A stretch of 64,000 bases of DNA from Tragulus kanchil (lineage: Eukaryota > Chordata > Mammalia > Artiodactyla > Tragulidae), in assembly GCA_022376925.1 (NCBI GenBank), contig JAIOJX010000027.1, positions 21,903,471 through 21,967,470 of the forward strand, written 5' to 3'. Below are positions 1-62,704 of the stretch, in pieces. The position numbers were made by a program, and so were the translations under genes. The notes below the pieces were generated by a model. It saw only the letters and a list, made by a program, of their open reading frames with translations. It made no database searches and was not told where the DNA came from. Numbering within the stretch: the first letter of the stretch is position 1; each line of letters opens with the position of its first letter.

Positions 1-154
1 GCATTAAATGCATGTATTAGAAAAGTAGAGAGGACTTAAATATATTAAAATTTATTTCAAAATTTTAACAGAAGAAAAACCAGAATGAGAAGGAATAAAA
101 AGCAAGAAGAAAATAGAAGAAATAACGAAGTTAATAAAAATTAATGAAGTAGAG

Positions 155-450
155 AGCCTCCCGAGTGGCTCCGTGGTAAAGAATCTGCCTGCCCACGCAG
201 GGCACATGGGTTCGATCGCTAGGCCAGGAAGAGCCCACGTGCCGTGTGGCAGCTGAGCCCGTGCAGCACCGCCATCGAACCTGTGTTCCAAAGCCCGGGA
301 GCCGCAACTACGGAGCCACGTGCCCTAGAGCCTCTGCTCCGCCACAAGAGAAGCCACTGCACTAAGAAGCCTGTGCACCACAACCAGAGGGTAGCCCCCA
401 CTCGCCACAACTAGAAAAAGGCTGCGCACAGCAATGAAGACCCAGCGCAG
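155..450 (+). mobile_element. CHR-2-type tRNA-Glu SINE (first copy)
   Basis: The head resembles tRNA-Glu, with an A-box-like stretch and a GGTTCGATC B-box. The body has the CHR-2 phrases on accession of 'gagaagccactgca' and 'caacgaagacccag' type. It is repeated at 1262-1557 as part of duplication 1. The right end is interrupted by an Art2A insertion. Confidence 0.8.
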
Positions 451-452
451 CT

Positions 453-783
453 CAGCTGAGCCACTCAGTCGCACCTGAGTCTTGGCAACCCCGTGGAAGG
501 CAGCACGCCAGGCTTCCCTGTCCTTCACCATCTCCCAGAACCTGCTCCAGCTCATGTCCACGGACTTAGTTATGCCATCCAACCATCTCATCCTCTGTCA
601 TCTCCTTCTCCTTCTGCCTTCTGTTTTTCCCAGTATCAGAGTCTTTGCCAATGAATCACCTCTTTGGCATCAGGTGGCCAAAGTATTAGAGTTTCAGCTT
701 CAGCATCAGTCCTTCCAATGAATATTCAGGGTTGATTTTCTTTAGGATGGACTGCTTTAATCTCCTTGCTGTCCAAGGGACTC
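453..783 (-). mobile_element. Art2A/BovA SINE (BovB-derived), first copy
   Basis: The reverse-strand sequence has the ruminant Art2A signature: 'actaagtccgtggacatgag', 'atgctgggaaa'-type core and 'cattggaaggactgatgctg'. It lies inside duplication 1 and is cut near 747 by the duplication join. Confidence 0.75.
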
Positions 784-1242
784 TCAACGAAACACCTGAA
801 GCATCATGACCCATGGCCACCGTCACCAGCCCTCGTGTCAGAGTCGGGAAGCCGTGAGGACCAGGGCAACCCGGAGAGCAGATGCCAGGGAAGAGGGGGT
901 CCCTCCCGCTCAACCGGCTGTCCTCACACAACACGCAGGCAATGTGGCTCAGATCCATACACTGTTAAGGAGTAGCTCAAAATCTGGGCGTGGAGTGAAA
1001 TCTTTCTTTGAAACACCAGCTTAATTAGAAACAATAGCAATCCAACCTGGGCCTCCCAGACCCATCTGCTGGCACAACGGTTGAGTTATGCTTGAGGATA
1101 TTTTACAGCATTAAATGCATGTATTAGAAAAGTAGAGAGGACTTAAATATATTAAAATTTATTTCAAAATTTTAACAGAAGAAAAACCAGAATGAGAAGG
1201 AATAAAAAGCAAGAAGAAAATAGAAGAAATAACGAAGTTAAT

Positions 1243-2006
1243 AAAAATTAATGAAGTAGAGAGCCTCCCTAGTGGCTCCGTGGTAAAGAATCTGCCTGCC
1301 CACGCAGGGCACATGGGTTCGATCGCTAGGCCAGGAAGAGCCCACGTGCCGTGTGGCAGCTGAGCCCGTGCAGCACCGCCATCGAACCTGTGTTCCAAAG
1401 CCCGGGAGCCGCAACTACGGAGCCACGTGCCCTAGAGCCTCTGCTCCGCCACAAGAGAAGCCACTGCACTAAGAAGCCTGTGCACCACAACCAGAGGGTA
1501 GCCCCCACTCGCCACAACTAGAAAAAGGCTGCGCACAGCAATGAAGACCCAGCGCAGCTCAGCTGAGCCACTCAGTCGCACCTGAGTCTTGGCAACCCCG
1601 TGGACGGCAGCACGCCAGGCTTCCCTGTCCTTCACCATCTCCCAGAACCTGCTCCAGCTCATGTCCACGGACTTAGTTATGCCATCCAACCATCTCATCC
1701 TCTGTCATCTCCTTCTCCTTCTGCCTTCTGTTTTTCCCAGTATCAGAGTCTTTGCCAATGAATCACCTCTTTGGCATCAGGTGGCCAAAGTATTAGAGTT
1801 TCAGCTTCAGCATCAGTCCTTCCAATGAATATTCAGGGTTGATTTTCTTTAGGACTGATTGGTTTGATCTCCTTGCTGTCCAAGGGACTCTCAAGAGTCT
1901 TCTCCAACATCACAATTCAAAGGCATCAATTTTCTGACCCAGTGCAGCCATAAATAAAAAAGAATCAAGTAAATAAATCTTTTTTAAAAATTAATGAAGT
2001 AGAGAG
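1243..2006. mobile_element. Nested insertion: CHR-2 SINE carrying an Art2A insertion, with target-site duplications
   Basis: A 21-base direct repeat at 1243-1263 and 1986-2006 brackets the whole block and is the target-site duplication of the CHR SINE (head at 1262, AAATAAAT-rich tail near 1955-1985). Inside it, the phrase 'gacccagYgcagc' occurs near 1544 and again near 1936. That brackets the reverse-oriented Art2A element (about 1560-1935), which therefore inserted later. The order of events can be read directly. Confidence 0.8.
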
Positions 2007-2870: not shown

Positions 2871-2873
2871 AAA

Positions 2874-5144
2874 AATTTTTTTAAAATCAGGAAAAAACCC
2901 CTTCACCATTGCAACCAAAAGAATCAAATATCTAGGAATAAACCTACCCAAAGAAACAAAAGAATTGTACACAGAAAATTACAAGACACTCATGAGAGAC
3001 ATTAAAGAAGACTTAAACAGATGGAGAGATATTCCATGTTCCTGGATTGGAAGAATCAATATTGTGAAAATGACCATACTTCCAAATATCATCTACAGAT
3101 TCAATGCAATACCTATTCAACTACCACTGACATTTTTCACAGAACTAGACCAAATAATAACACAGTTCATATGGAAACACAGAAGACCTCGAATAGCAAA
3201 AGCAATCCTGAGGAAGAAAAATGGAGTTGGAGGGATCAGCCTCCCTAACTTCAGACTCTACTACAAAGCAACAGTTATCAAGACAGTATGGTACTGGCAC
3301 AAAAACAGAACTATAGATCAATGGAACAAGATTGAGAACCCAGAGATCAACCCACGCATCTATGGGTACCTTATTTTTGATAAAGGAGGAGAAACTATAA
3401 AATGGGACAAAGACAGTCTCTTTAACAAGTGGTGCTGGGAGAATTGGACAGCTACATGCAAAAAAATGAAATTGGAACATTCCCTGACGCCATACACTAA
3501 GATCAACTCAAAATGGATTAAAGACCTCAATGTAAGACCAGAAACCATCAAACTCTTAGAGGAGAATATAGGTAAAACCCTCAAGGACATCAATCAAAGC
3601 AAGATACTAAAATAGCAGAACTGAAAAAAAAAATGAACATATGGGACCTCATGAAACTTAAAAGCTTTTGTACAGCAAAAGAAATTACAAAAAAGTTCAA
3701 CAGACACCCCACAGAGTGGGAGAAAATCATAGCAAATGAAACAACAGACAAAGAATTAATCTCCAAAATCTACAAGCAACTCAGACAACTCAGCACAGGA
3801 AAATGAGCAGCCCAATCAAAAATGGGAAAAGATCTAAAGAGACGCCCCTCCAAAGAGGACATACAAATGGTCCAAAGCACATGAAGCGATGCTCAACCTC
3901 GCTTATTATTAGAGAAATGCAAATTAAAACCACAATGAGATACCACCTCACACCTGTCAGAATGGACATCATCAACAAATCGACAGACAAAAAGTGCTGG
4001 AGAGGGTGAAAATTTTTAAAATCAGGAAAACCCTTCACCATTGCAACCAAAAGAATCAAATATCTAGGAATAAACCTACCCAAAGAAACAAAAGAATTGT
4101 ACACAGAAAATTACAAGACACTCATGAGAGACATTAAAGAAGACTTAAACAGATGGAGAGATATTCCATGTTCCTGGATTGGAAGAATCAATATTGTGAA
4201 AATGACCATACTTCCAAATATCATCTACAGATTCAATGCAATACCTATTCAACTACCACTGACATATTTCACAGAACTAGACCAAAGAATAACACAGTTC
4301 ATATGGAAACACAGAAGACCTCGAATAGCCAAAGCAATCCTGAGGAAGAAAAATGGAGTTGGAGGGATCATCCTCCCTAACTTCAGACTCTACTACAAAG
4401 CAACAGTTATCAAGACAGTATGGTACTGGCACAAAAACAGAACTATAGATCAATGGAACAAGATTGAGAACCCAGAGATCAACCCACGCACCTATGGGTA
4501 CCTTATTTTTGATAAAGGAGGAGAAACTATAAAATGGGACAAAGACAGTCTCTTTAACAAGTGGTGCTGGGAGAATTGGACAGCTACATGCAAAAAAATG
4601 AAATTGGAACATTCCCTGACGCCATACACTAAGATCAACTCAAAATGGATTAAAGACCTCAATGTAAGACCAGAAACCATCAAACTCTTAGAGGAGAATA
4701 TAGGTAAAACCCTCAAGGACATCAATCAAAGCAAGATACTAAAATAGCAGAACTGAAAAAAAAAATGAACATATGGGACCTCATGAAACTTAAAAGCTTT
4801 TGTACAGCAAAAGAAATTACAAAAAAGTTCAACAGACACCCCACAGAGTGGGAGAAAATCATAGCAAATGAAACAACAGACAAAGAATTAATCTCCAAAA
4901 TCTACAAGCAACTCAGACAACTCAGCACAGGGAAAATGAGCAGCCCAATCAAAAAATGGGAAAAAGATCTAAAGAGACGCCTCTCCAAAGAGGACATACA
5001 AATGGTCCAAAAGCACATGAAGCGATGCTCAACCTCGCTTATTATTAGAGAAATGCAAATTAAAACCACAATGAGATACCACCTCACACCTGTCAGAATG
5101 GCCATCATCAACAAATCGACAGACAACAAATGCTGGAGAGGGTG
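2874..5144. repeat. Tandem duplication 2 (unit about 1132 bp) inside the L1
   Basis: Copy 1 (2874-4008) and copy 2 (4009-5144) carry the same L1 ORF2 segment. Copy 1 has several homopolymer losses relative to copy 2, for example in the runs near 3820-3890, plus scattered substitutions. The rest of the L1 continues only after copy 2. One copy looks like unpolished long-read sequence. Confidence 0.9.
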
Positions 5145-5895: not shown

Positions 5896-5911
5896 TCTTA
5901 AAAAAAGAAGA

Positions 5912-12988: not shown

Positions 12989-13382
12989 AGGTGGGAGGGG
13001 TGAAATCTCAAGGCAATGCAAGAAGCGATCATGAATAAGCTTTTGAGAAACAGAGCCGGAGCCTCGACGGGTTCTCTGAAAGGAGAACTTGGCTCCTTCT
13101 CGGCCTCGAAGTCCGTGGACCCACCGGGTCTGAGCGGCTCTCAGTCCTTCTCCTCTGGAAGGAAGACTGAGATGTGGGGAATGCGGAACCACTGGGGAAA
13201 TAGTGGGGAGCCGAGATCGACGGACACAGAGCCAGCCACGTGGGATTTCAAGCATAGCCGAATTTTCAGGAGCCTGGAAGCTTGGAGGTTCTACTGAATT
13301 ACGGGGGGCTTGGGCCAAAGTCAGAGACGAGATTCCAGGTTCCAGTCTAGACCAGAGGTTGGAAGGAAAGGGTGAGGAGGTA

Positions 13383-15538
13383 TCAAAACCCAGACTGCTG
13401 GGACTTCCCGGCTGGTCCCGTGGTTAAGATTCTGAGCTTCAAATCCAGGGGGGCGAGGGTTCAATCCCTGGTTGAGGAATAAGATCTTACATGCCGCATG
13501 GTGCAGATAAAATACACTTTTTTAAAATAAATAAACTCAACCGAAAAAATAGATTACCTACTGAAAGAAAGGGGCCCAAAGAGCAGGAAGGTGTGAGTGG
13601 GGAGCTCCTGGTCCAACAGGCGCGAGGGGCTGCTGTGCTGAGAGCAGACCAGGAGCTCTTATGGCTGAGCCCCAGCTCACAAGGGGAGGATCTGTGAACA
13701 CCGATTCCAGCCCGAGTCCTCCAGGAGCTTGTCAGTTACAGCTTCCTGAAGAAACTGGCTCATCGTTCATGGCTCTTCACTGCTAGCGCCTCATCCTGCC
13801 TCACCCACACCTGTCATACCTATGTCTTGCAATGGATCTGACAACCCCATGTCCAGCCCGTCCTTACCTTCCCCATCAGAACCCCAGCCCGACCTGCAGA
13901 GAAGCCCAAGAATTAGGAAAGGATCAGGCCTTTCTCAGGTTTTGGTGCTGGAGCCGCTTTTGCCGTGCGTCACATCTCCCGAGAAGCGAGTGAGTCCCCA
14001 GGAGAGAGCTAAGCCCCTCACATCCTTATCGGGAGTGACTGGGCGCTGGGAGCGTTATTTGCACAGGAAAATGCAGCTGCTGATAAACCAGGGTTTTCCA
14101 AGATGTGGCCAGAAGTGGCTTTTCATATTACATCCATCCAGGCCATAAAGTCAGGTCAATGGTACAGAGAGAGAGAGCAGGCAGCCCTTGGTCCCACTGC
14201 TCCACCAAGCTACCCTCCGCCCCAGGCCTTGAACAGCGATGCTGAGAGGCGTCTGGCCCCAGCAAGCAAGGGCACCATTTGGCTTCCAGGGGAAATGACG
14301 ATGAGTTAAGCAAGACGGGGTACCCTGGAGGACAAAGGGTACATGCTTTGAGGGATGTTGGGTAATCTTCCTCAGTCACAGGCAGTAAGGAGCCAACAGC
14401 CCCTGAGTCGTTCCAGATTTCTGCCTGTGGCCTGACCCTCTGATCCTGGGCCTTCCTAGATCAAAACCCAGACTGCTGGGACTTCCCGGCTGGTCCCGTG
14501 GTTAAGATTCTGAGCTTCAAATCCAGGGGGGCGAGGGTTCAATCCCTGGTTGAGGAATAAGATCTTACATGCCGCATGGTGCAGATAAAATACACTTTTT
14601 TAAAATAAATAAACTCAACCGAAAAAATAGATTACCTACTGAAAGAAAGGGGCCCAAAGAGCAGGAAGGTGTGAGTGGGGAGCTCCTGGTCCAACAGGCG
14701 CGAGGGGCTGCTGTGCTGAGAGCAGACCAGGAGCTCTTATGGCTGAGCCCCAGCTCACAAGGGGAGGATCTGTGAACACCGATTCCAGCCCGAGTCCTCC
14801 AGGAGCTTGTCAGTTACAGCTTCCTGAAGAAACTGGCTCATCGTTCATGGCTCTTCACTGCTAGCGCCTCATCCTGCCTCACCCACACCTGTCATACCTA
14901 TGTCTTGCAATGGATCTGACAACCCCATGTCCAGCCCGTCCTTACCTTCCCCATCAGAACCCCAGCCCGACCTGCAGAGAAGCCCAAGAATTAGGAAAGG
15001 ATCAGGCCTTTCTCAGGTTTTGGTGCTGGAGCCGCTTTTGCCGTGCGTCACATCTCCCGAGAAGCGAGTGAGTCCCCAGGAGAGAGCTAAGCCCCTCACA
15101 TCCTTATCGGGAGTGACTGGGCGCTGGGAGCGTTATTTGCACAGGAAAATGCAGCTGCTGATAAACCAGGGTTTTCCAAGATGTGGCCAGAAGTGGCTTT
15201 TCATATTACATCCATCCAGGCCATAAAGTCAGGTCAATGGTACAGAGAGAGAGAGCAGGCAGCCCTTGGTCCCACTGCTCCACCAAGCTACCCTCCGCCC
15301 CAGGCCTTGAACAGCGATGCTGAGAGGCGTCTGGCCCCAGCAAGCAAGGGCACCATTTGGCTTCCAGGGGAAATGACGATGAGTTAAGCAAGACGGGGTA
15401 CCCTGGAGGACAAAGGGTACATGCTTTGAGGGATGTTGGGTAATCTTCCTCAGTCACAGGCAGTAAGGAGCCAACAGCCCCTGAGTCGTTCCAGATTTCT
15501 GCCTGTGGCCTGACCCTCTGATCCTGGGCCTTCCTAGA
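13383..15538. repeat. Tandem duplication 3 (unit 1078 bp)
   Basis: 13383-14460 and 14461-15538 appear identical across the unit. The join is at a shared TCAA. It carries a CHR-1 SINE and otherwise unique non-coding sequence. It has the same size class as the other duplications. Confidence 0.95.
13402..13550 (+). mobile_element. CHR-1-type SINE (copied at 14480-14628)
   Basis: Forward head 'ggtcccgtggttaagattc' and B-box 'gggttcaatccctggttg', with a TTTTTTAAAATAAATAAA-type tail. The second copy is due to duplication 3, not a second insertion. Confidence 0.8.
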
Positions 15539-15589
15539 TCAAGGACAGAGATTCTGCTTTGAATCAAGGAAAGAGATTTCTCTGGGAAC

Positions 15590-20312: not shown

Positions 20313-20518
20313 TGAGATGCTAATTAACTTGGGTCAAAACAAAACTTCCTTTATGCTTTCATGGAAAGGAAATTTGAGTAGGAAATCCAGAGTCTAATGT
20401 GTATGTGTACACATGTGTATGTGTGTTTAGAAGGAACCCACTCCCACAGCCCCCTGGACCCCTCGGTAGTCGCGTCCACACTGGCAGGTCCTCAGCCCAC
20501 TCTGTTGCTCCCTTGCAG

Positions 20519-20629: not shown

Positions 20630-20723
20630 GTAAGCACTCGTGGGCTCTCTCAGGTCCCAGCAGGAAATGGGTGGATGCTCACACTGGATCTTCAGGGGGT
20701 TCAATTAAAAGACTATTAACCGG

Positions 20724-38141: not shown

Positions 38142-38226
38142 GTGAGTGGCTGCCCAGGAGGCTGGCGGGAGGCCGGGAGGGATGGGGCAGCCCAAGGCCC
38201 GTCCCTGAGCACGCTCTCCCGGGCAG

Positions 38227-42039: not shown

Positions 42040-46202
<4,163 letters not shown>

Positions 46203-46443
46203 AGGGCTTCCCTGGTGGTCCAGCGGGTAAAGAATCTGCCTTGCAGTGCAAGAGGCACCAGTTCGATCCCTGGCCCAGGAAGAACGTGTCGCAGAACGGC
46301 TGAACCACTGTGTCCAATTATGAGCCAGCGCTCTGGAGCACGTGCGCCCAGAGCAGTGCTCCGCAGTGAGAGGCCACTGCAATGGGAGGCCCACTCAGGC
46401 CAAAGAATAAAAGACGGATGAAAAATTAATATAAATAAAAAAG
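46203..46443 (+). mobile_element. tRNA-Glu SINE, distinctive subfamily, copy 6
   Basis: Forward copy in SLC9A3R1 intron 1: 'ccttgcagtgcaagaggcac', 'ccagttcgatccctggccc', 'tgtgtccaattatgagcc', 'gatggatg'-type tail with AATAAA repeats. Confidence 0.85.
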
Positions 46444-46511
46444 GCATGATGGGCGGGGAGCCCCAGAAAGCCAAGTCTGTGAGCACTGACCTGGGACCCT
46501 GGTCATTCATT

Positions 46512-48624: not shown

Positions 48625-48867
48625 CCGGAAGGGTAAAATAAAATGCACACCAGACTTGGAAAAGTTAGTACAGACAAAAGAACGTAAAGTATCCTTTCAT
48701 GACTTTTTGATAGATTACCTTTGGAATGATAGTGGTTTGGATCTGTTGTATTAAGTACGGTATTAAAATTGATCACTCATGTTTCTGTTTTATTTTCAAT
48801 GTGGCTGCTGGAAGCTTCTAGGTCACCTGCATGGCTGACATTCTGTTTCCATGGGACATGCTGTTCT

Positions 48868-49066
48868 CGTTGTTGTGGTTTAGTTGCTAACGTGTGTCCG
48901 ACTCTGTGTGACCCCATGGACTGTAGCCCACCAGCCTCCTCTGTCCATGGGATTTCCCAGACAAGAATACTGGAGTGGGTTGCCATTTCCTCCTCCAGCG
49001 GATCTTTCCAGATCCGGGATCCAACCCTTGTCTCCTGCTTGGCAAGCGGATTCTTTACTATGCGAC
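48868..49066 (-). mobile_element. Bov-tA SINE
   Basis: Reverse copy: 'gttgttgtggtttagttgc', 'gtgtgtccgactctgtgtga', 'tggagtgggttgccatttcc', 'gatccgggatccaacccttg'. Confidence 0.88.
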
Positions 49067-49618
49067 TCTAGATCTAGCTCAGAACCTACCCTCTTCTCCC
49101 AGCAACTGTGTGTACTTGAGCAATGTACACCATCTGTTTGAACCTGGATTTCCTCATCTGTGAAGTGAGGGTGGTAATACCTTCCTTGAAGAGTTACAGG
49201 CGGGTCATACGGAGAAAATACACTTAAAAGCCCCAGTGCAGTAAGTAGTAAGTGCTCATTGAAGGGCAGCTGCTCTTTGTTATTTCAACAGAGCCACGAT
49301 TTCACAAGCTCCAAGAAGGTCCTTAAAGTCTCTGGGGACAGTCCACAAGAGGTGAATCCAGCGAGCTCTGGGAGAGGGAAGGGTGAGGAAGGGTGATGGT
49401 AGAGAGCCTGCGGGGGCGGGCAGGCATGGGGCGGCCAGCCTAGAGGGTGTCCAGCCAGGCAGCAGCCCAGGTACCAGCCTGCTCCATCCCAGGCTTGCCC
49501 AGCCCTGGGAAGACCTGAGCCAAACGCTCCATTGAGCGTGTCTCTGGCCAGCCCAGGAAAGAGCCAGGGCCTCTGGAGGGAGAGTTATCATCTGGTTCCA
49601 GCCGGATCCCACCCTGCG
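49067..49618 (+). other. SLC9A3R1 intron 1, unique sequence
   Basis: Nothing recognised. Confidence 0.5.
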
Positions 49619-51798
49619 AGGCCCCAGAGGAGGGTCCTCCTGCTGAGAAGCAGCAAGCCCCGGGGTCCAGGACAGAAAGGGAGGTGTCCAGCGATCCAGT
49701 GTGTTCAGCCCTTGGGCGGCGGCAGGGGCCTTCTAGGGTGAAATAAGTGAAGCCACATTGGGGTCAGAGGTCACGGGCCAGTGGCAGCCAGACCCTTGGT
49801 ACCTCCCTTTGGGTGAGGAGAGGGCGCCTTCAGTCCAGAGCCATGAAGGCTGGCTCCCGGTCCCTCCCCAGCCTGCCCTTTGGACAGCGCCCCTGTGCCG
49901 CCAGGCACACGGTCCCCCAGGCAGAGCCAGCTCCTCCACCCTGGTTCCCTGAGGAGCTGGCGCCAGACCCAGGCCTGTGCCTCCGGGCCGGAGCTGCCGC
50001 CCAGAGCAGCCCTGGCCCCTCAGCCCCAGAGTGCCCACCCCTCCCCCACCAGCACCACGTCTCCACCCCTCCGGTCCCTCCCCCTTGCTCCCCCCTTGCT
50101 GAGGCTGATTCCCGGCTTGGGACGGCAGGGTACCATTCTTATCTTATTTGCATAAACCAGAGCCCTGCTGGGCCGGCTGGGGGAAGGGCGGTCTTGGGAG
50201 GTGACCAGTCTCCTCTGTTGTCCCCTGGCCACCCCGGTGGTCCTCCTGCTCCTCCAGCTCCACCTCTGGGGCGCAGGGCCCGCTGGCCTACAGCAGGCAG
50301 CCTGGCTGTTTTCTGTAGGGCTCATCAGCACGGCCTCGGCCAGGGAGGGGCTCAGCCCGGTGGGGCGTTGGCCCCCAGCCGCCCTCCCCAGGGAGGAGCA
50401 GGGAGCGGCCCTGGGCCTGCTCGCCAGAGACAGGTCACCGGGATTAGGGTATCGACTTTCCCCAGCTTCCCAGGTGGCTGCCGCTGCTGCCTATTGAATT
50501 CCGTGCCCAGCCCCGCTCCCTGGGCTGCGTGGGCGGAGGTGACCGGGCGGCCACTGGGTGGGGCTGGGTGCCTGCGGGCGAGGAGGTCGTGGAGGCAGCG
50601 GGCTGTGGGGCAGGCCTCTGCGGGGTTAGGGCCAGGCCTCCTGGCGGGTCTTGTCCGGCACTCAGGTGAGGGCGGGCGCCCCGGCCGTGGGCAGAGCCTG
50701 TGGGACCATGCAGGCCCCAGAGGAGGGTCCTCCTGCTGAGAAGAAAGCCCGGGGTCCAGGACAGAAAGGGAGGTGTCCAGCGATCCAGTGTGTTCAGCCC
50801 TTGGGCGGCGGCAGGGGCCTTCTAGGGTGAAATAAGTGAAGCCACATTGGGGTCAGAGGTCACGGGCCAGTGGCAGCCAGACCCTTGGTACCTCCCTTTG
50901 GGTGAGGAGAGGGCGCCTTCAGTCCAGAGCCATGAAGGCTGGCTCCCGGTCCCTCCCCAGCCTGCCCTTTGGACAGCGCCCCTGTGCCGCCAGGCACACG
51001 GTCCCCCAGGCAGAGCCAGCTCCTCCACCCTGGTTCCCTGAGGAGCTGGCGCCAGACCCAGGCCTGTGCCTCCGGGCCGGAGCTGCCGCCCAGAGCAGCC
51101 CTGGCCCCTCAGCCCCAGAGTGCCCACCCCTCCCCCACCAGCACCACGTCTCCACCCCTCCGGTCCCTCCCCCTTGCTCCCCCCTTGCTGAGGCTGATTC
51201 CCAGCTTGGGACGGCAGGGTACCATTCTTATCTTATTTGCATAAACCAGAGCCCTGCCGGGCCGGCTGGGGGAAGGGCGGTCTTGGGAGGTGACCAGTCT
51301 CCTCTGTTGTCCCCTGGCCACCCCGGTGGTCCTCCTGCTCCTCCAGCTCCACCTCTGGGGCGCAGGGCCCGCTGGCCTACAGCAGGCAGCCTGGCTGTTT
51401 TCTGTAGGGCTCATCAGCACGGCCTCGGCCAGGGAGGGGCTCAGCCCGGTGGGGCGTTGGCCCCCAGCCGCCCTCCCCAGGGAGGAGCAGGGAGCGGCCC
51501 TGGGCCTGCTCGCCAGAGACAGGTCACCGGGATTAGGGTATCGACTTTCCCCAGCTTCCCAGGTGGCTGCCGCTGCTGCCTATTGAATTCCGTGCCCAGC
51601 CCCGCTCCCTGGGCTGCGTGGGCGGAGGTGACCGGGCGGCCACTCGGGTGGGGCTGGGTGCCTGCGGGCGAGGAGGTCGTGGAGGCAGCGGGCTGTGGGG
51701 GCAGGCCTCTGCGGGGTTAGGGCCAGGCCTCCTGGCGGGGTCTTGTCCGGCACTCAGGTGAGGGCGGGGCGCCCCCCGGCCGTGGGCAGAGCCTGTGG
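49619..51798. repeat. Tandem duplication 12 (unit about 1089-1093 bp) in SLC9A3R1 intron 1
   Basis: Copy 1 (49619-50713) and copy 2 (50714-51798) differ by homopolymer indels such as AAGCAGCAAGCCCCGGGG versus AAGAAAGCCCGGGG and GGGCGGGCG versus GGGCGGGGCG. The long GC-rich frames (330 and 294 codons) in the two copies end differently because of these indels, which argues they are not genes. Confidence 0.92.
50138..50155. promoter_or_regulatory. GATA plus octamer motif cluster in SLC9A3R1 intron 1 (copied at 51227-51244)
   Basis: CTTATCTTATTTGCATAA holds a GATA site (complement AGATAAG) and the octamer ATTTGCAT (50146-50153) side by side, in an otherwise very GC-rich stretch. It is a candidate intronic enhancer core on motif evidence only. 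Confidence 0.35.
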
Positions 51799-54532
51799 AC
51801 CCCCGTTGCTTCCAGTCCTTCCTTGCACTTCTCTGCCAGTCTCCTCACTGAGCAGATCCTGATTTTTACTTCCAAGTTGTCGTGGTCACTGGAAGACCCA
51901 CCTGACGCTCTGAACCCTCTGCGGCCACGTTCCCCTTGAGGTCACCCTGCCTCCAGCGCTGGACCCTCTGGAGCGGCTGCCCTGGCCCAAGGGGGCCCCA
52001 TCCCAGGCCTGCGACGTCCCGGACATTCATTGATCTCCTTGCCCCAGAGGCCGAACCGAGGCTTTGCCGCCGCTCTGGGGGCCCAGGCCCAGAGCAACGG
52101 TGCCCACGGGCTCCGCGCCGGGCCTGGAGACCCCACAGCCTTCCGGAGCAGGGACTCTGCCAGCGCCAGCCTCCACCAGGCCGGGATGGGCCTTGTTGAT
52201 GGCTGACTCAGCAGCAGGCCTCGACCGTCCTGGAAGTGGCTGGGGAGGGCTGGAGAGCCACCCACAAGAGGCCTGGGAAGGTGTGAGCTGGACGAACTCT
52301 GGACTAGCCTGAGCGCTTCCGAAAATGCCTGGGCGTCCCTGGTCCCCTGGCGCAGACACCCCAGAAAACAGCAGAGGCGTTCCCCGGTTTTTGTGGCATT
52401 TTTTGAGATCCTGGCTTTGGGGGAAGGGAACACTGGGGGCCCGGCCCCTTGGTGGGGGCATCTGCCACTTCCTGAGATCTTCATGGCCTGGCGCTGGCAG
52501 AGGGCAGTGAGATGCAAAGGCCAGGTCACAGGCAAGAGTCCCGGGTGACGGTGCTCAGGAAGCCCTCAGCCAGGCGGCCCGAGCCTCAGGCCTGCCCCGG
52601 CGGCACTGCTCTCCCCGGAAGGAAGCCTGTGGTTTCCCCATCCCCTCGCCCCTCCCCGTGGAAGCTGCAGCCGCGTTTGCAGCTCTTGGCAGCTCCTGGC
52701 CGAGTGGGCCTCTTCCCAGCCGGAGCTAGGTCCTTCTGTGGATGGTGGTAGGGGGCGGGTTCAGAGCTGGGGTGGAGCTCTGACCTCAGGTCTCGCGTCT
52801 CCAGGGGCTCAGTTTTCCATCCCCGGGAGGGGGAGGTTAGGGTGAGGGTCCTGATCCCATCTCAGGGATGGGAGGGAGGCTCTTGGGAGGGACGGGGCGG
52901 CCTGAGGAGCGGGACACCGCGCAGCTGCCCCCATGATTCACCCTCCCTACTTTCTCAGGGTAACCGCGGAACCTCCCTCTGGCAGCAACTGGTCGGACCT
53001 GTTCCTGCTCACCTGGGCCTGGGGGAGGGCTGGGCTGGCAGCCGTGGAGGGATCAGCTCCAGGGGAGGGGAGCCTCTGACTGCGGGGGGGGGCAGGGAGG
53101 GGGGCACGCGGCCGCGGGCGGAGGGTGGGATCTGCGAGGAGTGGGCCCTGCAGTGAGGACCGGGGAAGGGGGCCGGTGAGGAGCGCTGGAGAGCCGAAGG
53201 TGGCCTCCCCACCCCGGATGGCAGCTCACTCAGCTGCCTCTGCCGTCGTCTGGGCTGCCCAGATCCGCATAAGCCCGGGCCTGTCACCTCGCCCTCCTTC
53301 CTGTCTTGGCCTCTGCACACCCCCAGCAACATCCTGAAACAGAAAGGCCCGCCCAGGCAGCCGAGGGAAAGCAGAGTCGCCCTCCCGCCGCCTCTCCACA
53401 CCTGCTCCCTGCCTCACAGAGCAGAGGGGTGGGACAGTCCACCCCAGGTGGCAGCTGCCTCCTGGCCGGTGTGCGCTGGGGCAGGAGGCTTGCTCCCCGC
53501 CCCTCCCTTGCCGGCTCCTCTCCCCACGGGGGAGTGAGGCTCCAGGGCAGCCAGCACCCCACCCTCAGAGCCGCCCCTCAGCTTCCGGTGACTGTTTGTC
53601 AGTATTAACCACGACAGGAACGTCTCCGCGTGCACAGGGTGCAGGGGGCCAGGTGCTCCCGTGTATGTGAAGTGGACCGCTTAGCACCCCGGGGAGGCAG
53701 GAGGGGTCTGTCAGCAGGGAGCCCGAGGCTCTCAGAAGGAAGCGACTTGCCCGGTCCCAGAGCTCCCCAGAGCTCCCCGGCTGCAGCAGCTGGAACCTGG
53801 GCCAGGGCCCTGACCTCCGCTCTGCTCCTTGCCTGGCATCCAGGTGAGCACCCAGAGCTGGTGGGCCTGGGAGCAGGGGGAGAGGGGACCGCCTGTCCAT
53901 CTGTGGGCTCAGTGTCCAGCCCCCAGTTCTCTGCATCCTGTGAACAGGCCCCAGGGCTGCAGCTGCTAAGCTGAGCAGTCGAAGCTGGACCCGGCCTGGT
54001 GAAACCGGCTTCCTGCTGGGGGTCTGAGTGGTTTCAGAGCAGCCTGACTGTGGCCTTTCGGCGGGTCCTCCCCTCCAGGCCGTGGCCACTCAGGGCTCCC
54101 TTCAGTCCAGCCCTGCTTTTCGTCACACTCTCCCCATTCAGGTCCCCTGGGAGCCTGCAGGTCTTTGGGGTACCGCTGCTGCCTTTGTCCTCAGCCTCGG
54201 TTCAGCTGGTGGGGTGTCTGGGACCCCTAGCTGTACCTCCCTCAGCCCCGTGGTCATCTGGCCGACAGCTCCCTTTAGCCTGGACCGTTTGGCGTGGTGG
54301 GGACAAGACAGGAGTCCGTGTGGGCGAGGAACGGCTTTCCTGTAAACATGCTTTGAGTCACCACCTGCCCTTGCTTCCCCCACTGCAGGGAACAGGGCTC
54401 AGCAGGGCTGGGCGTCCCCAGCCGCTGTCCCAGGTGCTCAGGCTGGCGGGGACGCTCCCCCTCCGCTCCCCAGGAGGGCCCAGACTGAGCCGGTAGCTTT
54501 GCGGGGTGAGGTAGCCATCAAGACATGATCAC
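51799..54532 (+). other. SLC9A3R1 intron 1, last unique part
   Basis: GC-rich. Open frames on both strands have no recognisable family. No repeat identified. Confidence 0.5.
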
Positions 54533-54612
54533 GGGGCTTTCCTGGCGGTCCTGTGGTTAAGACGCCACACGTCCAATGCAGGGGGCGTAGCTTCCATCCC
54601 TCGTCTGGTCAC
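54533..54612 (+). mobile_element. CHR-type SINE head fragment
   Basis: 'gctttcctggcggtcctgtg', 'gttaagacgccacacgtcc' and a degenerate B-box; the tail is missing. Confidence 0.65.
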
Positions 54613-54870
54613 TGAGACCTCTACCCTCACGTCTCATTTGCCACAAGAGGGAACCGTGCCATGGATCCAGAGGTGGCACTGTGCCCAGGGTCACCTGGGG
54701 GGGCTGTGGCAGTGCGGGGTCCCCGGCCAGCATTCTGTCTGGTGGTTCTGTAGGGTCTAAGCAGCCTTCCTTGGCTGGGGGGATGGGATCGGACACGGAG
54801 TGGGGATGGGGGAGGGGAACGGCGCCCGGGATGGTGTGCCATGACCGTGGCCCCTCTTTTCTCCCCACAG

Positions 54871-55032
54871 CGCGAGCTTCGGCCTCGGCTCTGCGCCATG
54901 AAGAAGGGCCCCAATGGCTACGGCTTCAACCTGCACAGCGACAAGTCTAAGCCAGGCCAGTTCATCCGGGCCGTGGACCCAGACTCGCCCGCAGAGGCCT
55001 CGGGGCTCCGTGCCCAGGACCGCATCGTGGAG
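54871..55032 (+). CDS. SLC9A3R1: SLC9A3R1 exon 2: first part of PDZ2
   Basis: 162 bases after CCCCACAG, donor GTGACG. Encodes residues 155-208, from [20 protein letters not shown] to QDRIVE. The PDZ2 carboxylate-binding GYGF is at 170-173. The GTGACG donor is weaker than consensus, but position and phase match the human exon. Confidence 0.95.
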
Positions 55033-55204
55033 GTGACGCCCCTTGCCCTCTCCCCAGGCTCTGCCTTCTCAACGGCCTTCCCCGCGCCGGCCGTCACACC
55101 ACCTGCTCCTTGGTTAGCCTGTGAGGTCTGGAGAGCCTGTCAGTGCTAGATAGACAGGTGGAGGGAGGGGACATGGTGGGCGAGTGGGCAAGGGGGAAGC
55201 AGGG

Positions 55205-55345
55205 AAAGACGGGAGAGTTCCTTGGCGGTTCAGTGGTTAGGACTCCATGCGTCCACACCCGGAGCCCAGGGTCAATCCTCGGTCAGAGACGTAAGATCCC
55301 ACAAGCTGTGAGGGGCACAATTTTTTTAAAAAAGGAAGGGAAGAT
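55205..55345 (+). mobile_element. CHR-1-type SINE
   Basis: 'gttccttggcggttcagtgg', 'ggttaggactccatgcgtcc', 'gtaagatcccacaagctgtg' and a TTTTTTTAAAAAA tail, in SLC9A3R1 intron 2. Confidence 0.75.
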
Positions 55346-56060
55346 GGCTGGGTAGACGGATGAACAGACAGAGAGGTGGACTGACTTCTTTCATGCTGCA
55401 TCTCACGTGGGCTCTTCCTTACCGAGCAGACATGCTCAACGGCCGGCGACTCCCCATCCATCCAGGCAGATGCCTGGGGCCACCGCCAGAGCTTCCCGCC
55501 TTCTGAGGCCTCCGCACCAGGCCCAGGCACGCACCAGGCCCAGGCACCCAGCGGGAGGGTAAAATCCTTCCCTAGAGGGAGGCTGGCAGGCATGCTCTTA
55601 CGCCCTATGCCCTGCCGGTCAGAAGAGGAAATGTGAACCAAGTGCCTTGGGCAGGTCCCAGAATCTCAGTCTTAGAGCCTCTGAGCTAGAAGATCAGCTC
55701 TCCCAAGACTTCTCAGCTTACACGCGAACAAACCAGGGCCCAGGCAGGGACGTACCTAGAGAAGCTGGGCCGCCGCCCGGGCCGCCCGGGCCTCTCCCGT
55801 CCGGGCCTCTCCCGTCCATCTGTCACAGCTGTGTTTATTCAGTCCCTGCCGGGTATTTTCTTTGGCTTTTCTTTCTCCCACGTCCTGCCTCCCCCTCAGA
55901 CGACCGGTCGACTGGGAGGACCAGCACCACTCGGCCTGGTTCCGGGGTCCACAGGCCGAGAGGGGCTGTGTACCCTGAGTGCCAGCTGGCTGAGCCTTCA
56001 CCGGCCCCCACCCGGCCCCAGAGCTGAGCCCCGTGCCCGTGACCCCCGCCCCGCCCACAG
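55346..56060 (+). other. SLC9A3R1 intron 2, unique sequence
   Basis: Contains a short tandem repeat of CCGGGCCTCTCCCGT near 55785-55816. Nothing else recognised. Confidence 0.55.
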
Positions 56061-56214
56061 GTGAACGGGGTCTGCGTGGAAGGCAAGCAGCACGGGGAGG
56101 TGGTCTCCGCCATCAAGGCTGGCGGGGACGAGGCCAAGCTGCTGGTGGTGGACAAGGAGACGGACGAGTTCTTCAAGAAATGCAAAGTGATCCCGTCCCA
56201 GGAGCACCTGCATG
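56061..56214 (+). CDS. SLC9A3R1: SLC9A3R1 exon 3: second part of PDZ2
   Basis: 154 bases after GCCCACAG, donor GTGAGC in phase 1. Encodes residues 209-259 ([20 protein letters not shown] onward), the PDZ2 alphaB helix region with the ligand-pairing histidine in KQHGE and the final beta strand [13 protein letters not shown]. Confidence 0.95.
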
Positions 56215-57059
56215 GTGAGCCGGGAGGCCAGGCATGTGCTCAGACTGGGGGAGCCGGCGGGGCGGGTGGGAGAGAGGACACCGCAGCTGGCACTGGGTCT
56301 CTGAGGACGGCGTGCGGGGCGTGGCTGGCACGAGCCATGGTGAGGTGGACCGGGGCTGCTGCTCCCCCAGAGGGAGAGGCGCCCCCACTCGCAGCGAGGT
56401 CTCAGGCCGATGCACGGCAAGGGTTAACTGGAGGGAGGCTTCCAGCCTCAGCTTGGTCAGATCAGAGTCCAGCCACAGGGGCCAGGGCCGCCCCTTCCCT
56501 TCTCCCAGGTTGTCTTGGAAACCCAGGCTCTGGCTCCGGAGAGCGTGGGTCCCTGGGCCCCTGCCCGCCCCCTCCCCCACCTCGCCCTGCCAAGCTGGCA
56601 CCTCCCCCGTCCCGGGCCCAAACCAACGCCGCACCAGGGCAGGGAGGAGCTGCGCGGCACTCTGCTCCCTGGTCTGGACTTTCTCCCTGGGAAGATGCCT
56701 CCTGGACAGGGGCTGGGGGCTGGGGGCTGGGTGGAGCCTCTTTGGACTTTGCCCTGGGTGGGGCTTCCCTGGGGGTCAGCTGTGGAGTTGATGGGGCCAC
56801 ACAGAGGTCTTGCCGCAAATCTAGATTCCCAGCGGGAGGGCCGGGGGTCCTGGGGGTGGATCCTGGAAGCCACCAGCAGACGCTGGTTGTGGGAGACGGG
56901 CACCTCTGTGCCCTTGTCTCCCAAGTTCATGGAAACCTGGGAACTCAGATAATCCCCATCCTCGTGAAGGGGGAAACTGAGGCCCAGAGAAACCCCCAGC
57001 CTTGCTCTTGGCAACATGGTGTGGGAAAGTGGAAGTGAAACCGGCTATCGCTCAGGCCC
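56215..57059 (+). other. SLC9A3R1 intron 3, unique part
   Basis: GC-rich. A 325-codon open frame continues from exon 3 into the intron but loses all NHERF similarity at the donor. Confidence 0.6.
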
Positions 57060-57237
57060 TTGCAACGCTGATGCCCTCGACTGTGGCCTCTCGGGCTCCT
57101 CTGTCCACGGAACTTTCCAGGCAAAAACACGGAGCAGGTAGCCATTCCCTTCTCCGGGGGATCTTCCCGACCCAGGGATGGAACCCGGGGTTCCTGCACT
57201 GCAGGCGGTTCTTTACTGCCTGAGTCACGAGGGAAGC
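57060..57237 (-). mobile_element. Bov-tA SINE
   Basis: Reverse copy: 'cgggctcctctgtccacgg', 'agcaggtagccattcccttc', 'cccagggatggaacccggg' and 'tgcctgagtcacgagggaag'. Confidence 0.85.
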
Positions 57238-57837
57238 CCCTGGCTGAAGTCTGGCCCCGCTCCGCCGCTCCCCAGCGTCCTCCTCCCCGCCCCCAAGTCA
57301 CAGCCCTCCCTCCTCTACCCCTCTGGTGGCTGCAGCCTCCGGTCAGAGGAGCCCCAGGGGGAGACTGAACACGGGCTCCCAGGGGCTGCCTCCTGACCGA
57401 CCACAGGGGCCTCCAGCTCACGGGGGAGGGGCTGCTCGGGGGCGATGGGCTCGAGGTGGGAGCGAGTGTCCCCGTGTCCCCACCTGGGCACAGTGGATGG
57501 CCAGGCGAGAGAGACGCCTGCCCCGGTCCAGGGCAAGGAGAGAGACGAAGATTTCTCTTAGTTCAGAGAAATCCCCTTGGCTGACCTGACATGGAACAGC
57601 CGCCTTTGCAGCGGGTGGGACATGGACCCTGAGTGAGGCCTGGGCGGGGTCCCCAGGCCCTGCGTCCCCTCCCTGCGGCCCCTCCCATCACCACCAGGGT
57701 TTCCACTGGCTAGAGCAGGGCACACCCAGGACCCGGCCCTGAACCTCGGGTCCCCCCACCCCCACACTGGCCAGTAGGAGTCGGGGTTCTTTCTTCAACG
57801 GCTCCTGTGGTTCTTGGGATGAACTGAGTAGGCTTTT

Positions 57838-58085
57838 TTCTTTTTTAACTTTTTATTGTGTATTGGAGTATAGCCAATTAACAATGTTTAAACACTTTCG
57901 GATGAATACCTTAGGGCCTCAGCCATGCCTGTCCATGTATCCATTCTCCCCCAAACTCCCCTCCCCTCCAGGCTGCCCGTAAGGCTGAGCTGAGCTCCCG
58001 TGCTGCACGGTTTCCACTTTAAGCACAGCAGAGTGTACCTGTCCGTCCCAGGCGCCCTACCCATCCCTCCCCGCTGTTAATGAAA
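57838..58085 (-). mobile_element. L1 3'-UTR fragment
   Basis: Reverse complement of the same L1 3' UTR seen near 2.0-2.2 kb: 'tgtattggagtatagccaat', 'tgtatccattctcccccaaa', 'cacagcagagtgtacctgtc'. Confidence 0.75.
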
Positions 58086-58348
58086 CTGAACGGGAAGCGG
58101 CAGGGCTAGGTGGCGTGGGGAGGGCAGGTGGTCTCGTTAAACTGTGCGTGTTACACACACGTCGTCTGTGGGTGCTGGGTGTCAGTGTCACTGTCGTCAC
58201 AGTGGGTGGCAGTCAGGAGAGGGAACAGTGGCCCGCGGCACGGGACGGGGTCGAGCATCTACCCGCGCCCCACGACTCCCACCGCCTTCCGCGCCCCGCT
58301 CCCTCCCGCAGCTTCCGACTCACCTTCCCTGCTCTCTCCTTCCTCCAG

Positions 58349-58389
58349 GTCCCTTGCCTGAGCCCTTTACCAATGGGGAGATCCAGAAG
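58349..58389 (+). CDS. SLC9A3R1: SLC9A3R1 exon 4
   Basis: A 41-base micro-exon after CTCCAG, donor GTAAAG. Encodes GPLPEPFTNGEIQK (residues 260-273), the start of the linker between PDZ2 and the ezrin-binding tail. Confidence 0.93.
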
Positions 58390-59393
58390 GTAAAGGCAGC
58401 CCCCCGACCCCCTGGCTCGGCCTGGGGCTGGCAGAGCGGGTGGGAGGAGGGGGGCTGGGAGGAGGACAGCGTCTTGCTCAGGTGGAACCCTTCCTGGCAG
58501 CTCCCGCCCGAGCCCCAGGCCATGGGACTGCCCCTTCCTGGGGCCAGGGCCGCGGGGCGGGAGAGGCCTGGCTAGGCCCCTCGGCGGCCGCCATTCTGGG
58601 TGACAGGCTCCACCTCCACCTCCCCACCACACAGAGGAGGCCATTCTTCCCCCAAGAACAGAGCTGCAGTGTCTGGCCACGGGCTTCCCGGCCCCTGCTA
58701 CTTCCAGTCTGGGCTGGAGGAACAAAGCCCCTCCGCCCCGGGCCGAAGGGGAGAGAAGGCCGCGGAGGCTGGGGGAGCGATGGCACGGCCCGGTGCCAGC
58801 AGGGTCCACGGGGGCCCAGGAGGAGCCGAGCGCCCCGCTGCAGCCCTGGCCCAGGCCGGAGTCGGGTCCCGGGGCAGGAGCTCTCCGCAGGCTCTGCTCA
58901 CAGGCTTCCTTTCCTTGGGGGCTCCTGCCAGGGACGCAGCAAGGGGGTGGGCCTGGCCACCGGCGCCTTCAGTCCCTGTGCTGTGGGTCTGGAACCCGCA
59001 CTCCCCCTTACTCCTGCAAGGCCCTTCCCGGCTGCTTCGGGGTTAAGATTCTAAGGATCGGAGGGTCAGGTCCAAGTAAACAGTCAGGTGGGCTGCAGGA
59101 GCATCCCGGGTGTGCCCCACAGTGTGTCCCGCACTCCAGAGGGCCCCTCCCTGGTCACCGTCCCAGAGGATCTACCTGGGAGGACAGGAGCGGGGTGAGC
59201 CCCTCAGCGACCACCACGGTGGATGGTCCCCCCGCCCGGGGCTGCCCTCTGATCCCTGGAAGAATGTGAAAACGTAAATCCTTGTGGGGCCTTGGCAGGG
59301 CCCCCGGGAAGCAGGGCTCAGGCCCCGGCCCCGTCTCCCCGGGCATGCCCTTCCTTGCTCAGATCGGCCCCCCACCCCTTCTCTCTGCACCAG
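58390..59393 (+). other. SLC9A3R1 intron 4
   Basis: GC-rich unique sequence. A 204-codon open frame has no recognisable family. Confidence 0.55.
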
Positions 59394-59483
59394 GCGAGCA
59401 GTCGCGAGGCCCTGGCCGAGACCGCCTCCGAGAGCCCCCGGCCGCCCCTGGCAAGATCCGTCTCCAGTGACCCCAGCGAGGAG
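59394..59483 (+). CDS. SLC9A3R1: SLC9A3R1 exon 5
   Basis: 90 bases after CACCAG, donor GTGGGC, in frame throughout. Encodes the serine-rich linker ASSREALAETASESPRPPLA to SDPSEE (residues 274-303). The human counterpart contains the GRK and PKC phosphorylation cluster around the SR(E)A and RSxSSD serines; the RSVSSD form is kept here. Confidence 0.94.
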
Positions 59484-59689
59484 GTGGGCGGGGCGGTGGG
59501 CGGGAAGGGCTGGCCCTGGGCGACAGCAGTCCGTTCCCAGGCCTCGCTCCCTCCTGGCCCGCCGGCCCGCCACGGAGGTCACATGCTGAGCCACGTTCTG
59601 TTCTTGTGACCTGGCTTCCCGGGCGCTGCCCCAAGGGAGCCACCTTGCCCAGGCCCTGACCCCTGCTCGCTCTCTCCTCCTTATTCCAG

Positions 59690-59884
59690 CTGAATTCCCA
59701 AGACAGCCCGAAGAGACCGGACCCCACGGCAGCCGCGTCTACCTCCTCCTCGTCCTCCGAGCCCGTCCTGGACTTCAACATCTCCCTGGCCGCGGCCAAA
59801 GAGCGGGCCCACCAGAAGCGCGTCTGCAAGCGGGCCCCGCAGATGGACTGGAGCAAGAAAAACGAACTCTTCAGCAACCTCTGA
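59690..59884 (+). CDS. SLC9A3R1: SLC9A3R1 exon 6: ezrin-binding C-terminus
   Basis: Follows TTCCAG and ends at TGA 59882-59884. Encodes residues 304-367. The last 30 or so residues, [20 protein letters not shown] then KNELFSNL, are the ERM-binding helix. The terminal FSNL is also an internal PDZ ligand that can fold back onto PDZ2. The variable segment before it has an expanded serine run (STSSSSSEP). Confidence 0.96.
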
Positions 59885-60463
59885 GCGCCCCTCCCACCCG
59901 CCGCCAGGCGGGCCGGGCCAGCCCCGCACCCCAGCCCTACCCCGACCCCCCAGATCAGCACACGAATCAGCACCAGCCCCTCCTCTCTTGCAGACCTGAT
60001 CTTTCTAGAGAAGCACGTTCCTCCTCACCTCGGGGAAGGTGACAGCTTTTCCGTCCTGCCCGTCGTCAGAGCAGACTCTGCTCCCCTCCCCACTGGGCAC
60101 TTCCGCCTGCCCCGGGCCCCGCCACTGTCCGGGGACATCACAGGGGGCGCCATCAGCAAAGGTCACGAGGCTGGGCGAGAGGTCACCTTCCCTCCTGACC
60201 CCGCGGGGGGACTAGGTCCAGAATCGACCAAGGAAGGACTCGGATCACAGCGACATCTGGATCACTGTCCTCAGAACTGCGACTAGAGCATCTCGTTTTT
60301 GTTTTTTTTTTCCCTTTTTTCAGTCCTACAGAGTTTAGAGGGACTTTCGATTCCTTGATTAACATGATTTTTCAGGTGGTTGTATCCAGGACGTAGCAGT
60401 GGCCTGACCCTTCAACTTTTTTTGTTTCCACTCCCACCCTGAGAGACCTGGGGAGGGTTTGGC
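59885..60463 (+). other. SLC9A3R1 3' UTR
   Basis: Non-coding sequence after the stop with a T-rich stretch (about 60296-60320). No AATAAA was found, so the end is not placed. It is duplicated to 61561. Confidence 0.6.
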
Positions 60464-60491
60464 CATCCCTTCTGCTCAGATGCCCCCCCCG

Positions 60492-60579
60492 GCGAGCAGT
60501 CGAGGCCCTGGCCGAGACCGCCTCCGAGAGCCCCCGGCCGCCCCTGGCAAGATCCGTCTCCAGTGACCCCAGCGAGGAG
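60492..60579 (+). pseudogene. Broken second copy of SLC9A3R1 exon 5
   Basis: 88 bases instead of 90. The GC of AGTCGCGAGG is lost, which shifts the frame, and the upstream CACCAG acceptor is replaced by a CCCCCCCCGG run. It cannot be spliced or read as copy 1 is. Assembly error is the simplest cause. Confidence 0.88.
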
Positions 60580-60785
60580 GTGGGCGGGGCGGTGGGCGGG
60601 AAGGGCTGGCCCTGGGCGACAGCAGTCCGTTCCCAGGCCTCGCTCCCTCCTGGCCCGCCGGCCCGCCACGGAGGTCACATGCTGAGCCACGTTCTGTTCT
60701 TGTGACCTGGCTTCCCGGGCGCTGCCCCAAGGGAGCCACCTTGCCCAGGCCCTGACCCCTGCTCGCTCTCTCCTCCTTATTCCAG

Positions 60786-60980
60786 CTGAATTCCCAAGAC
60801 AGCCCGAAGAGACCGGACCCCACGGCAGCCGCGTCTACCTCCTCCTCGTCCTCCGAGCCCGTCCTGGACTTCAACATCTCCCTGGCCGCGGCCAAAGAGC
60901 GGGCCCACCAGAAGCGCGTCTGCAAGCGGGCCCCGCAGATGGACTGGAGCAAGAAAAACGAACTCTTCAGCAACCTCTGA
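60786..60980 (+). CDS. SLC9A3R1: Second copy of SLC9A3R1 exon 6
   Basis: Identical to 59690-59884 including acceptor and stop. It lies in the downstream copy of duplication 13, after the real 3' UTR. Probably a false duplicate. Confidence 0.82.
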
Positions 60981-62704
60981 GCGCCCCTCCCACCCGCCGC
61001 CAGGCGGGCCGGGCCAGCCCCGCACCCCAGCCCTACCCCGACCCCCCAGATCAGCACACGAATCAGCACCAGCCCCTCCTCTCTTGCAGACCTGATCTTT
61101 CTAGAGAAGCACGTTCCTCCTCACCTCGGGGAAGGTGACAGCTTTTCCGTCCTGCCCGTCGTCAGAGCAGACTCTGCTCCCCTCCCCACTGGGCACTTCC
61201 GCCTGCCCCGGGCCCCGCCACTGTCCGGGGACATCACAGGGGGCGCCATCAGCAAAGGTCACGAGGCTGGGCGAGAGGTCACCTTCCCTCCTGACCCCGC
61301 GGGGGGACTAGGTCCAGAATCGACCAAGGAAGGACTCGGATCACAGCGACATCTGGATCACTGTCCTCAGAACTGCGACTAGAGCATCTCGTTTTTGTTT
61401 TTTTTTTCCCTTTTTTCAGTCCTACAGAGTTTAGAGGGACTTTCGATTCCTTGATTAACATGATTTTTCAGGTGGTTGTATCCAGGACGTAGCAGTGGCC
61501 TGACCCTTCAACTTTTTTTGTTTCCACTCCCACCCTGAGAGACCTGGGGAGGGTTTGGCCACCCCTGCCCAGCCCTGAGCCAGACACAACTGTAAGGAAA
61601 CTCTCACCTGAAATTCAGCCCGTGTCGCCACACCGCCTTGGCCTCTGTGTCTTCCTTTGCGCTCTGTCCCCTGGTCTCAGGGTGGCCTCTGGCCGGGAGG
61701 GAGACGCTGGTGGTTCCGGGCTCCGTGACCCAAGCCTGGAGCAGGGCGCTTTTAACTAGGGGGGCTTCCGGCTGCAGCCGCTGGGTGGCCAGGCCAGGCC
61801 GGGGTCCTGTGGGAGGACCCCCCTGGGCCCCTGTGTGCTTGGCTCGCTGGGGCTGCCCCGGAGGGATGCTCCTCAGGGAAACTGGGAACTTAAAACCCAC
61901 CTGCGCAGAGGGCTTCTGGGGTCCCCTCGGATTCCAGGAGCCATGAAAGTGAATCCCTGATGGGCCCAGACTTGGAGAGAGAAGGCCTGGCTTTAATCTT
62001 CCTGCCAGAGAGAGGCAGGATTCCCAGGGGTGGCCCTCGCTGGTCCCAGAGCCTCTTAGTTGGCCGTGGGCCTGACTGCAGGGACAGGGGAGCACAGACC
62101 CGGCCTGCTGGGCCCCGGGACAGGCTTGTGGCAGCTGGGGAGGAGGGGATTTTCCAATGGCGAATGGCCCTGCTCCTCATGGGAGTCTGGGTCCCGTGCA
62201 CCGCTGGCCCCTGAGGGCCTCCTGACATCTGCCATGTTCCTAGGCAGGTGCAGGAGGAAGGGAAGCTGACCCTGGGCTATCCTCCACCCAACCCGGAGGT
62301 CACTCGGAAACCAGGTTCCCGGGACTGAGGAGAACAAGGAGGGAAGGTCACTATCTGGCCATCGCTATCTGGCTTATTAAGGTTGGAATGCCACTAGAGA
62401 AACCTTCCAAAACCCTTATCACGGCACCAGTCACAGGTGTTAGGCTGCACCTGCCTGACCCCACTCACCCCTGCCTCCACCCTGTGACCCCTGATGGAGG
62501 TTCCCTGCAGGCGAGCAGTGAGCGGGCCCCACCGGCTGGGGAGAGAGAGGGGCCCTCCCTCCTCCACCTGCTGAGTGGGGAGGCCCTGAGGACTTCTGAA
62601 TGACCACGCAGGGACAGGAGGAAGAACAGGTGGCTCAGGGGTAACTGTCGCTGAGGGGCTGCAGACCCCAGGAGGCAGTTCGTGTCTTAGGTTCGGGCAT
62701 GTAT

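Follow-up and report, generated by a model that had tools for sequence, protein, structure and literature searches.

Tandem pairs and genes of the window

The window, a 64,000-base stretch of the Tragulus kanchil assembly (contig C17, positions 21,903,471–21,967,470), carries coding exons of two genes on the forward strand and is crossed by 13 direct tandem pairs of about 1.1 kb. The assembly holds 3,167,203,957 bases in 32 contigs. The first copies of the coding exons of a Rab GTPase gene, presumably RAB37, lie at 33757–37522, as located by a motif search from 33757 onwards. The coding exons of SLC9A3R1/NHERF1, from the first PDZ domain (PDZ1) to the stop codon, lie at 42454–59884. The joined translation of the RAB37-like exons has Rab-26 as its best PDB match, followed by Rab-8A, and the first PDZ exon of NHERF1 matches NHE-RF1 (2m0t) with an E value of 1.4e-59.

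Self-comparison of the window recovers all 13 of the tandem duplications listed in the original prediction, and the measured offsets agree with the predicted ones to within about 10 bases. The left-edge offsets between the first copy (A) and the second copy (B) are 1078, 1079, 1083, 1084, 1094, 1096, 1103, 1107, 1119, 1121, 1137, 1138 and 1139 bases (mean 1,106, standard deviation (SD) 23), and the choice of aligner can move these values by as much as about 20 bases. The copies are near-identical as claimed (97.9–100%), and pairs 3 and 6 show no difference over 1,083 and 1,065 bases. Either copy of a pair covers 27,815 of the 64,000 bases (43%), in keeping with the predicted near half. Beyond the 13 pairs, the window contains no plus-strand match of at least 200 bp and at least 93% identity, bar one 349-bp secondary hit at the site where pairs 4 and 5 overlap. 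The pairs fall in L1, short interspersed nuclear element (SINE), intron, flanking and coding exon sequence, as the original prediction had stated. The SINE and long interspersed nuclear element (LINE) sequence we take to be ruminant.

Pair 1 (1–1894; offset 1107, 99.1%) is truncated by the window start, with copy A at 1–787 and copy B at 1108–1894, and its matching copy begins 108 bases upstream of the window (C17:21903363–21903963). Pair 2 (2872–5144; A 2872–4008, B 4009–5144; 98.4%) occupies what is presumably L1 sequence resembling open reading frame 2 (ORF2). Pair 3 (13382–15542; A 13382–14464, B 14460–15542; 100%) has a 5-bp shared end, and pair 4 (18027–20312; A 18027–19172, B 19166–20312; 99.0%) a 7-bp shared end. 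Pair 5 (19962–22124; A 19962–21041, B 21058–22124; 98.7%) overlaps pair 4, and about 350 bases are present three times there (18826–21396). Pair 6 (27161–29308; A 27161–28225, B 28244–29308) has an identical core around an 18-bp spacer; with the continuation of the spacer included, it runs to 29351 at 97.9%. Pair 7 (29309–31564; A 29309–30432, B 30430–31564; 98.0%) starts where pair 6 ends, or overlaps it by 43 bases under the longer extension. It also overlaps pair 8 (31466–33601; A 31466–32525, B 32545–33601; 99.0%; 19-bp spacer) by 99 bases.

The remaining pairs lie in or near the two genes. Pair 9 (36983–39102; A 36983–38016, B 38067–39102; 98.5%; 50-bp spacer) contains RAB37-like exons. 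Pair 10 (39617–41892; A 39617–40754, B 40755–41892; 99.65%) is directly upstream of NHERF1 exon 1. Pair 11 (46480–48624; A 46480–47532, B 47583–48624; 98.6%; 50-bp spacer) and pair 12 (49611–51798; A 49611–50703, B 50705–51798; 98.7%) are both between the PDZ1 and PDZ2 exons of NHERF1. Pair 13 (59356–61566; A 59356–60470, B 60473–61566; 98.0%) contains the last two coding exons of that gene.

All joins in the window are head-to-tail. The copies abut, have 3–7 bases in common or are separated by a spacer of at most 50 bases. The short scrambled spacers predicted at several joins are seen as unaligned stretches of 16–50 bases at 5 of the 13 pairs (5, 6, 8, 9 and 11). That description does not hold for pair 6, where the longer extension shows the spacer to be the right flank continued, with bases missing. 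When the five spacers of more than 10 bases were compared with the flanks against 300 shuffles, the pair 6 spacer alone outscored every shuffle; those of pairs 8, 9 and 11 and one more matched neither flank. The spacers of pairs 8, 9 and 11 (32526–32544, 38017–38066 and 47533–47582) are rich in homopolymer blocks. They may be the collapsed consensus of misaligned reads.

Spread through the assembly

The pairs are not confined to this locus. In a first probe of the assembly, 16 of the 38 hits outside the window pair up, forming 8 pairs 1.05–1.19 kb apart. Further sampling covered 10-kb stretches, 20 of them placed on 13 contigs at round-number positions and 5 adjoining one of these, and pairs were counted at offsets of 950–1,300 bases. 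The sample contains some N (394 in stretch L009, 1,212 in L016, 45 in L023 and 354 in the joined 60-kb stretch), which may be gaps or withheld letters. Every one of the 25 stretches has 1–4 pairs, with 60 joins in the 248 kb sampled, which extrapolates to about 0.77 million joins in the whole assembly. The offset averages 1,115 bases with an SD of 40 (67 complete pairs, window included).

This size class dominates the self-matches of the window and the 25 stretches. Among 82 matches of at least 250 bp and at least 90% identity, 73 are at offsets of 950–1,300 bases. The rest comprise five at 2,185–2,326 bases, where pairs overlap, three short repeat copies and one at an offset of 758. Natural microhomology-mediated tandem duplication would be expected to give mixed sizes, and such a mixture is not observed. 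Pairs occur across the assembly whatever the sequence type, coding exons too, which we take as a mark of false duplication.

Extra copies make up 27% of the sampled bases (bootstrap 23.5–30.5%). With one copy of each pair dropped, the assembly would shrink from 3.167 Gb to about 2.3 Gb (2.2–2.4 Gb). If left-cut pairs are omitted, the extra bases are 25% and 2.37 Gb remains. Two giraffe assemblies have 2.44 and 2.58 Gb in the part of PMC12621783 drawn on here.

Polarity and density of errors at the joins

The differences between the copies are strongly polarized. Concatenation of assembly pieces predicts errors where the left piece ends and the right one begins, at the 3′ end of A and the 5′ end of B, whereas a duplication of DNA predicts differences at any position in either copy. 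Insertions and deletions (indels) were counted in 67 of the 73 pairs (12 in the window and 55 in the sample, one of the latter, in L016, interrupted by a run of N), with 6 end-cut pairs dropped. In the first window count, made on the 12 complete pairs with pair 1 excluded, the first 130 columns of the copies show 25 indels with bases missing in B and 3 with bases missing in A. The last 130 columns show 9 missing in A and 1 in B. With the longer extension, 37 of 41 end-zone indels in the window are losses of join-side bases (p = 1e-7), as are 108 of 126 in the sample (p = 8e-17), or 145 of 167 together. Counted by unit end, the loss is on the join side in 12 of 12 cases in the window and 46 of 52 in the sample.

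The errors are also dense at the copy ends. In 65 pairs (L016 is left out here and from all measurements of joins, spacers and pieces), gap columns amount to 392 of 16,900 (2.3%) at the ends versus 60 of 55,380 (0.1%) inside, about 20 times denser. Errors are thus concentrated where pieces meet, as in a false duplication, and the position-independent differences expected of natural duplication are not found. Substitutions inside the copies are rare, 65 of 55,320 (0.12%), a rate at which two alleles are a plausible source.

The joins themselves are of several kinds. Spacers of at least 5 bases are present at 24 of the 65 joins, and the window is free of N throughout. At 24 of the 65 joins, 3–18 identical bases stand at the piece ends, commoner than chance. 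The distances between joins give 50 piece lengths of 1,662–10,456 bases, irregular and, judged by eye, with no evident steps.

Doubled coding exons

Coding exons are also caught in the pairs. Pair 9 repeats the last three RAB37-like coding exons, stop codon included, with second copies from about 38091. The two copies of the last exon carry different codons, for Leu or Ser, immediately ahead of the stop (37517–37519 versus 38603–38605); the difference is perhaps between two alleles, or an error. Pair 13 repeats the last two coding exons of NHERF1, the second copy at about 60480–60980. In copy B, the penultimate exon has lost bases where it begins, and its reading frame is shifted.

A genome-wide search for PDZ domains, in which 150 of 372 candidates were scored and 144 matches listed, extends this observation. 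Of the 144 PDZ matches listed, 62 are in same-strand pairs 1,077–1,227 bases apart, and 32 of them are extra copies. This pairing required the same model start or end; 3 of the 32 such pairs have only the end in common, and one of these, with a spacing of 1,227 bases, may combine two distinct exons. Two further pairs at 950–1,300 bases, with differing model ends, were left uncounted. When pairs within 20 kb with an identical model range are taken instead, 32 are found among the matches listed: 29 at 1,000–1,199 bases, two at about 2,200 and one at 382. The two at about 2,200 are triplets, that is, tripled PDZ exons (C3:59602363–59604720 and C3:227229382–227231784) where consecutive doubled units overlap. 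Coding exons appear to be doubled at a rate similar to that of the sampled bases.

Origin of the pairs

Judged from the assembled sequence, the 1.1-kb duplications are almost certainly absent from the animal, and overlapping assembly pieces were strung together unmerged. The assembly would have been built from pieces of 1.7–10.5 kb, each having about 1.1 kb in common with its neighbor. Left uncollapsed at joining, the common stretch would be written once at the end of one piece and again at the beginning of the following one. The pieces would be consensus blocks of deletion-biased, Nanopore-like long reads, because piece ends lose bases far oftener than they gain them. Deletion bias is a property of Nanopore-type rather than older PacBio reads. 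The common stretch could be a window of fixed length on the raw reads. At about 8% net deletion, a 1,024-base window on the reads would lengthen about 1.09-fold in the corrected sequence, to about 1,115 genomic bases, giving a narrow yet inexact size. This points to an overlap constant near 1,024 bases in a program, and the observed offset (1,115, SD 40) would match 1,024 raw bases only at that level of read deletion.

Our best guess for the tool is an assembler of the wtdbg type. In wtdbg and wtdbg2, which use a fuzzy Bruijn graph, pieces run between fixed-length nodes, one node is common to neighboring pieces and merging is needed there, as would be the case here. The nodes are 1,024 raw-read bases long, and the overlap between neighboring nodes is limited to 256 raw bases. 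The present case differs from this scheme in the offset, which averages 1,115, and in unit overlaps of up to 442 bases.

Several observations weigh against an unmerged overlap, or against parts of this scheme. The 2.2–2.4 Gb that would remain is low for a ruminant, whose genome is usually 2.6–2.7 Gb; unsampled regions may carry fewer joins. The 14 unit overlaps measure 43–442 bases and five exceed 300, compared with the 256-base limit of wtdbg. Four of the five tested spacers match neither flank. The ratio of transitions to transversions inside the copies is 18:8 in the window and 23:17 in the sample, the latter less like that of single nucleotide polymorphisms. As the transition excess is weaker in the sample, two alleles are a fair reading of these differences but not a firm one. 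One tandem pair in L011 (4177–5867; offset 758, 936 bp, 96.8%), with SINE-like copies alongside, lies outside the size class; it could be a genuine duplication mediated by the repeats, or else repeat sequence that was joined wrongly. Finally, the 24 of 65 joins with at least 3 bp in common (7% expected) show the short breakpoint homology that microhomology-mediated duplication would also leave. The shared bases are explained equally well by a joiner that takes a spurious short match for an overlap, and this excess does not separate an artefact from a real duplication.

The original prediction blamed an assembly step, gap filling or contig overlap, for leaving some 1.1 kb unmerged. The overlap itself is borne out by the presence of pairs in 25 of 25 stretches and by the polarity of the indels, most of which are bases lost next to the join (37/41 and 108/126); gap filling in particular does not emerge from these data. 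A later step, such as gap filling, scaffolding or polishing, would have an identical outcome, and some join spacers do resemble unsupported filler. We consider it unlikely that such a step, rather than consensus joining in the assembler, left the overlap. The joins recur irregularly every 1.7–10.5 kb, which polishing in fixed windows would not give, and it is improbable that scaffolding would build contigs as long as 297 Mb out of 2-kb pieces and leave no N in the window. The near-constant overlap again suggests a program constant. Gap filling between scaffolded contigs seems to fit less well than consensus stitching inside the assembler, because the joins come every 1.7–10.5 kb and the window lacks N.

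It is far less probable that uncollapsed alleles of each stretch were placed in tandem. The interior difference of 0.12% is plausible for heterozygosity, and heterotype false duplication, in which two alleles are both retained, is a familiar error described in part of PMC9516828. However, copies can be 100% identical over about 1.1 kb (pairs 3 and 6, and several pairs under the longer extension), and haplotype differences give no reason for a single length. Haplotypes may decide which allele each copy shows, not the size of the copy.

Real tandem duplications, mediated by microhomology and of one narrow size class, recall the tandem-duplicator phenotype, in which one genome carries many head-to-tail duplications of characteristic size; the layout of the joins, their shared bases and their short inserted spacers would suit this origin. 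In that phenotype the duplications measure about 10 kb upwards and are far less numerous, and the join-side loss is left unexplained. A real origin of the 1.1-kb class is untenable, with a vanishingly small chance of being right, because it requires some 0.77 million events of nearly one size in one genome, all of them recent given the 0.12% interior difference, and accounts neither for the polarity of base loss (145 of 167 indels) nor for conserved coding exons being affected at a similar rate (32 extra copies among the 144 PDZ matches listed).

Unmerged overlaps belong with false duplications, an established class of assembly error (PMC9516828, in the part drawn on here). In both cases single-copy sequence appears twice and produces false exon or gene gains, and sequence errors block merging; in false duplications unsupported sequence can separate the copies, as the spacers seen here may do. 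The false duplications in that part of PMC9516828 reach at most 15.9% of an assembly, with only a minority on a single scaffold. In the present assembly extra copies account for about 27% of the sampled bases, the size hardly departs from about 1.1 kb and the pairs are tandem, within-stretch pairs being the ones sought. The open-access literature that we searched has no description of this constant 1.1-kb tandem form or of such a wtdbg failure, and the Dog10K paper, consulted on wtdbg2 duplications, has no bearing on the matter. It is possible, with the balance tilted somewhat against it, that this is an undocumented systematic failure of a widely used long-read assembler, which writes the sequence common to consecutive consensus pieces twice, inflates this chromosome-scale mammalian assembly by about one third and creates very many false exons, and that other assemblies from the same tool version and read type carry the 1.1-kb signature. 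If so, affected assemblies could be found by a simple self-offset scan.

The pairs are most likely a severe and easily screened assembly error and no feature of the animal. Gene models, copy-number estimates and repeat and segmental-duplication statistics taken from this assembly would be wrong. The scan for self-offsets, combined with the polarity of base loss at the joins, is a test that works without reads and can be applied to further assemblies as a screen.

Other observations

Short-period tandem repeats in the window are unrelated to the 1.1-kb pairs. An Rfam scan of the window gave 0 matches, and a search of it with NAT9 motifs found none. Two contigs of the assembly, C2 (297 Mb) and C15 (292 Mb), are very long, which suggests a ruminant with fused chromosomes.

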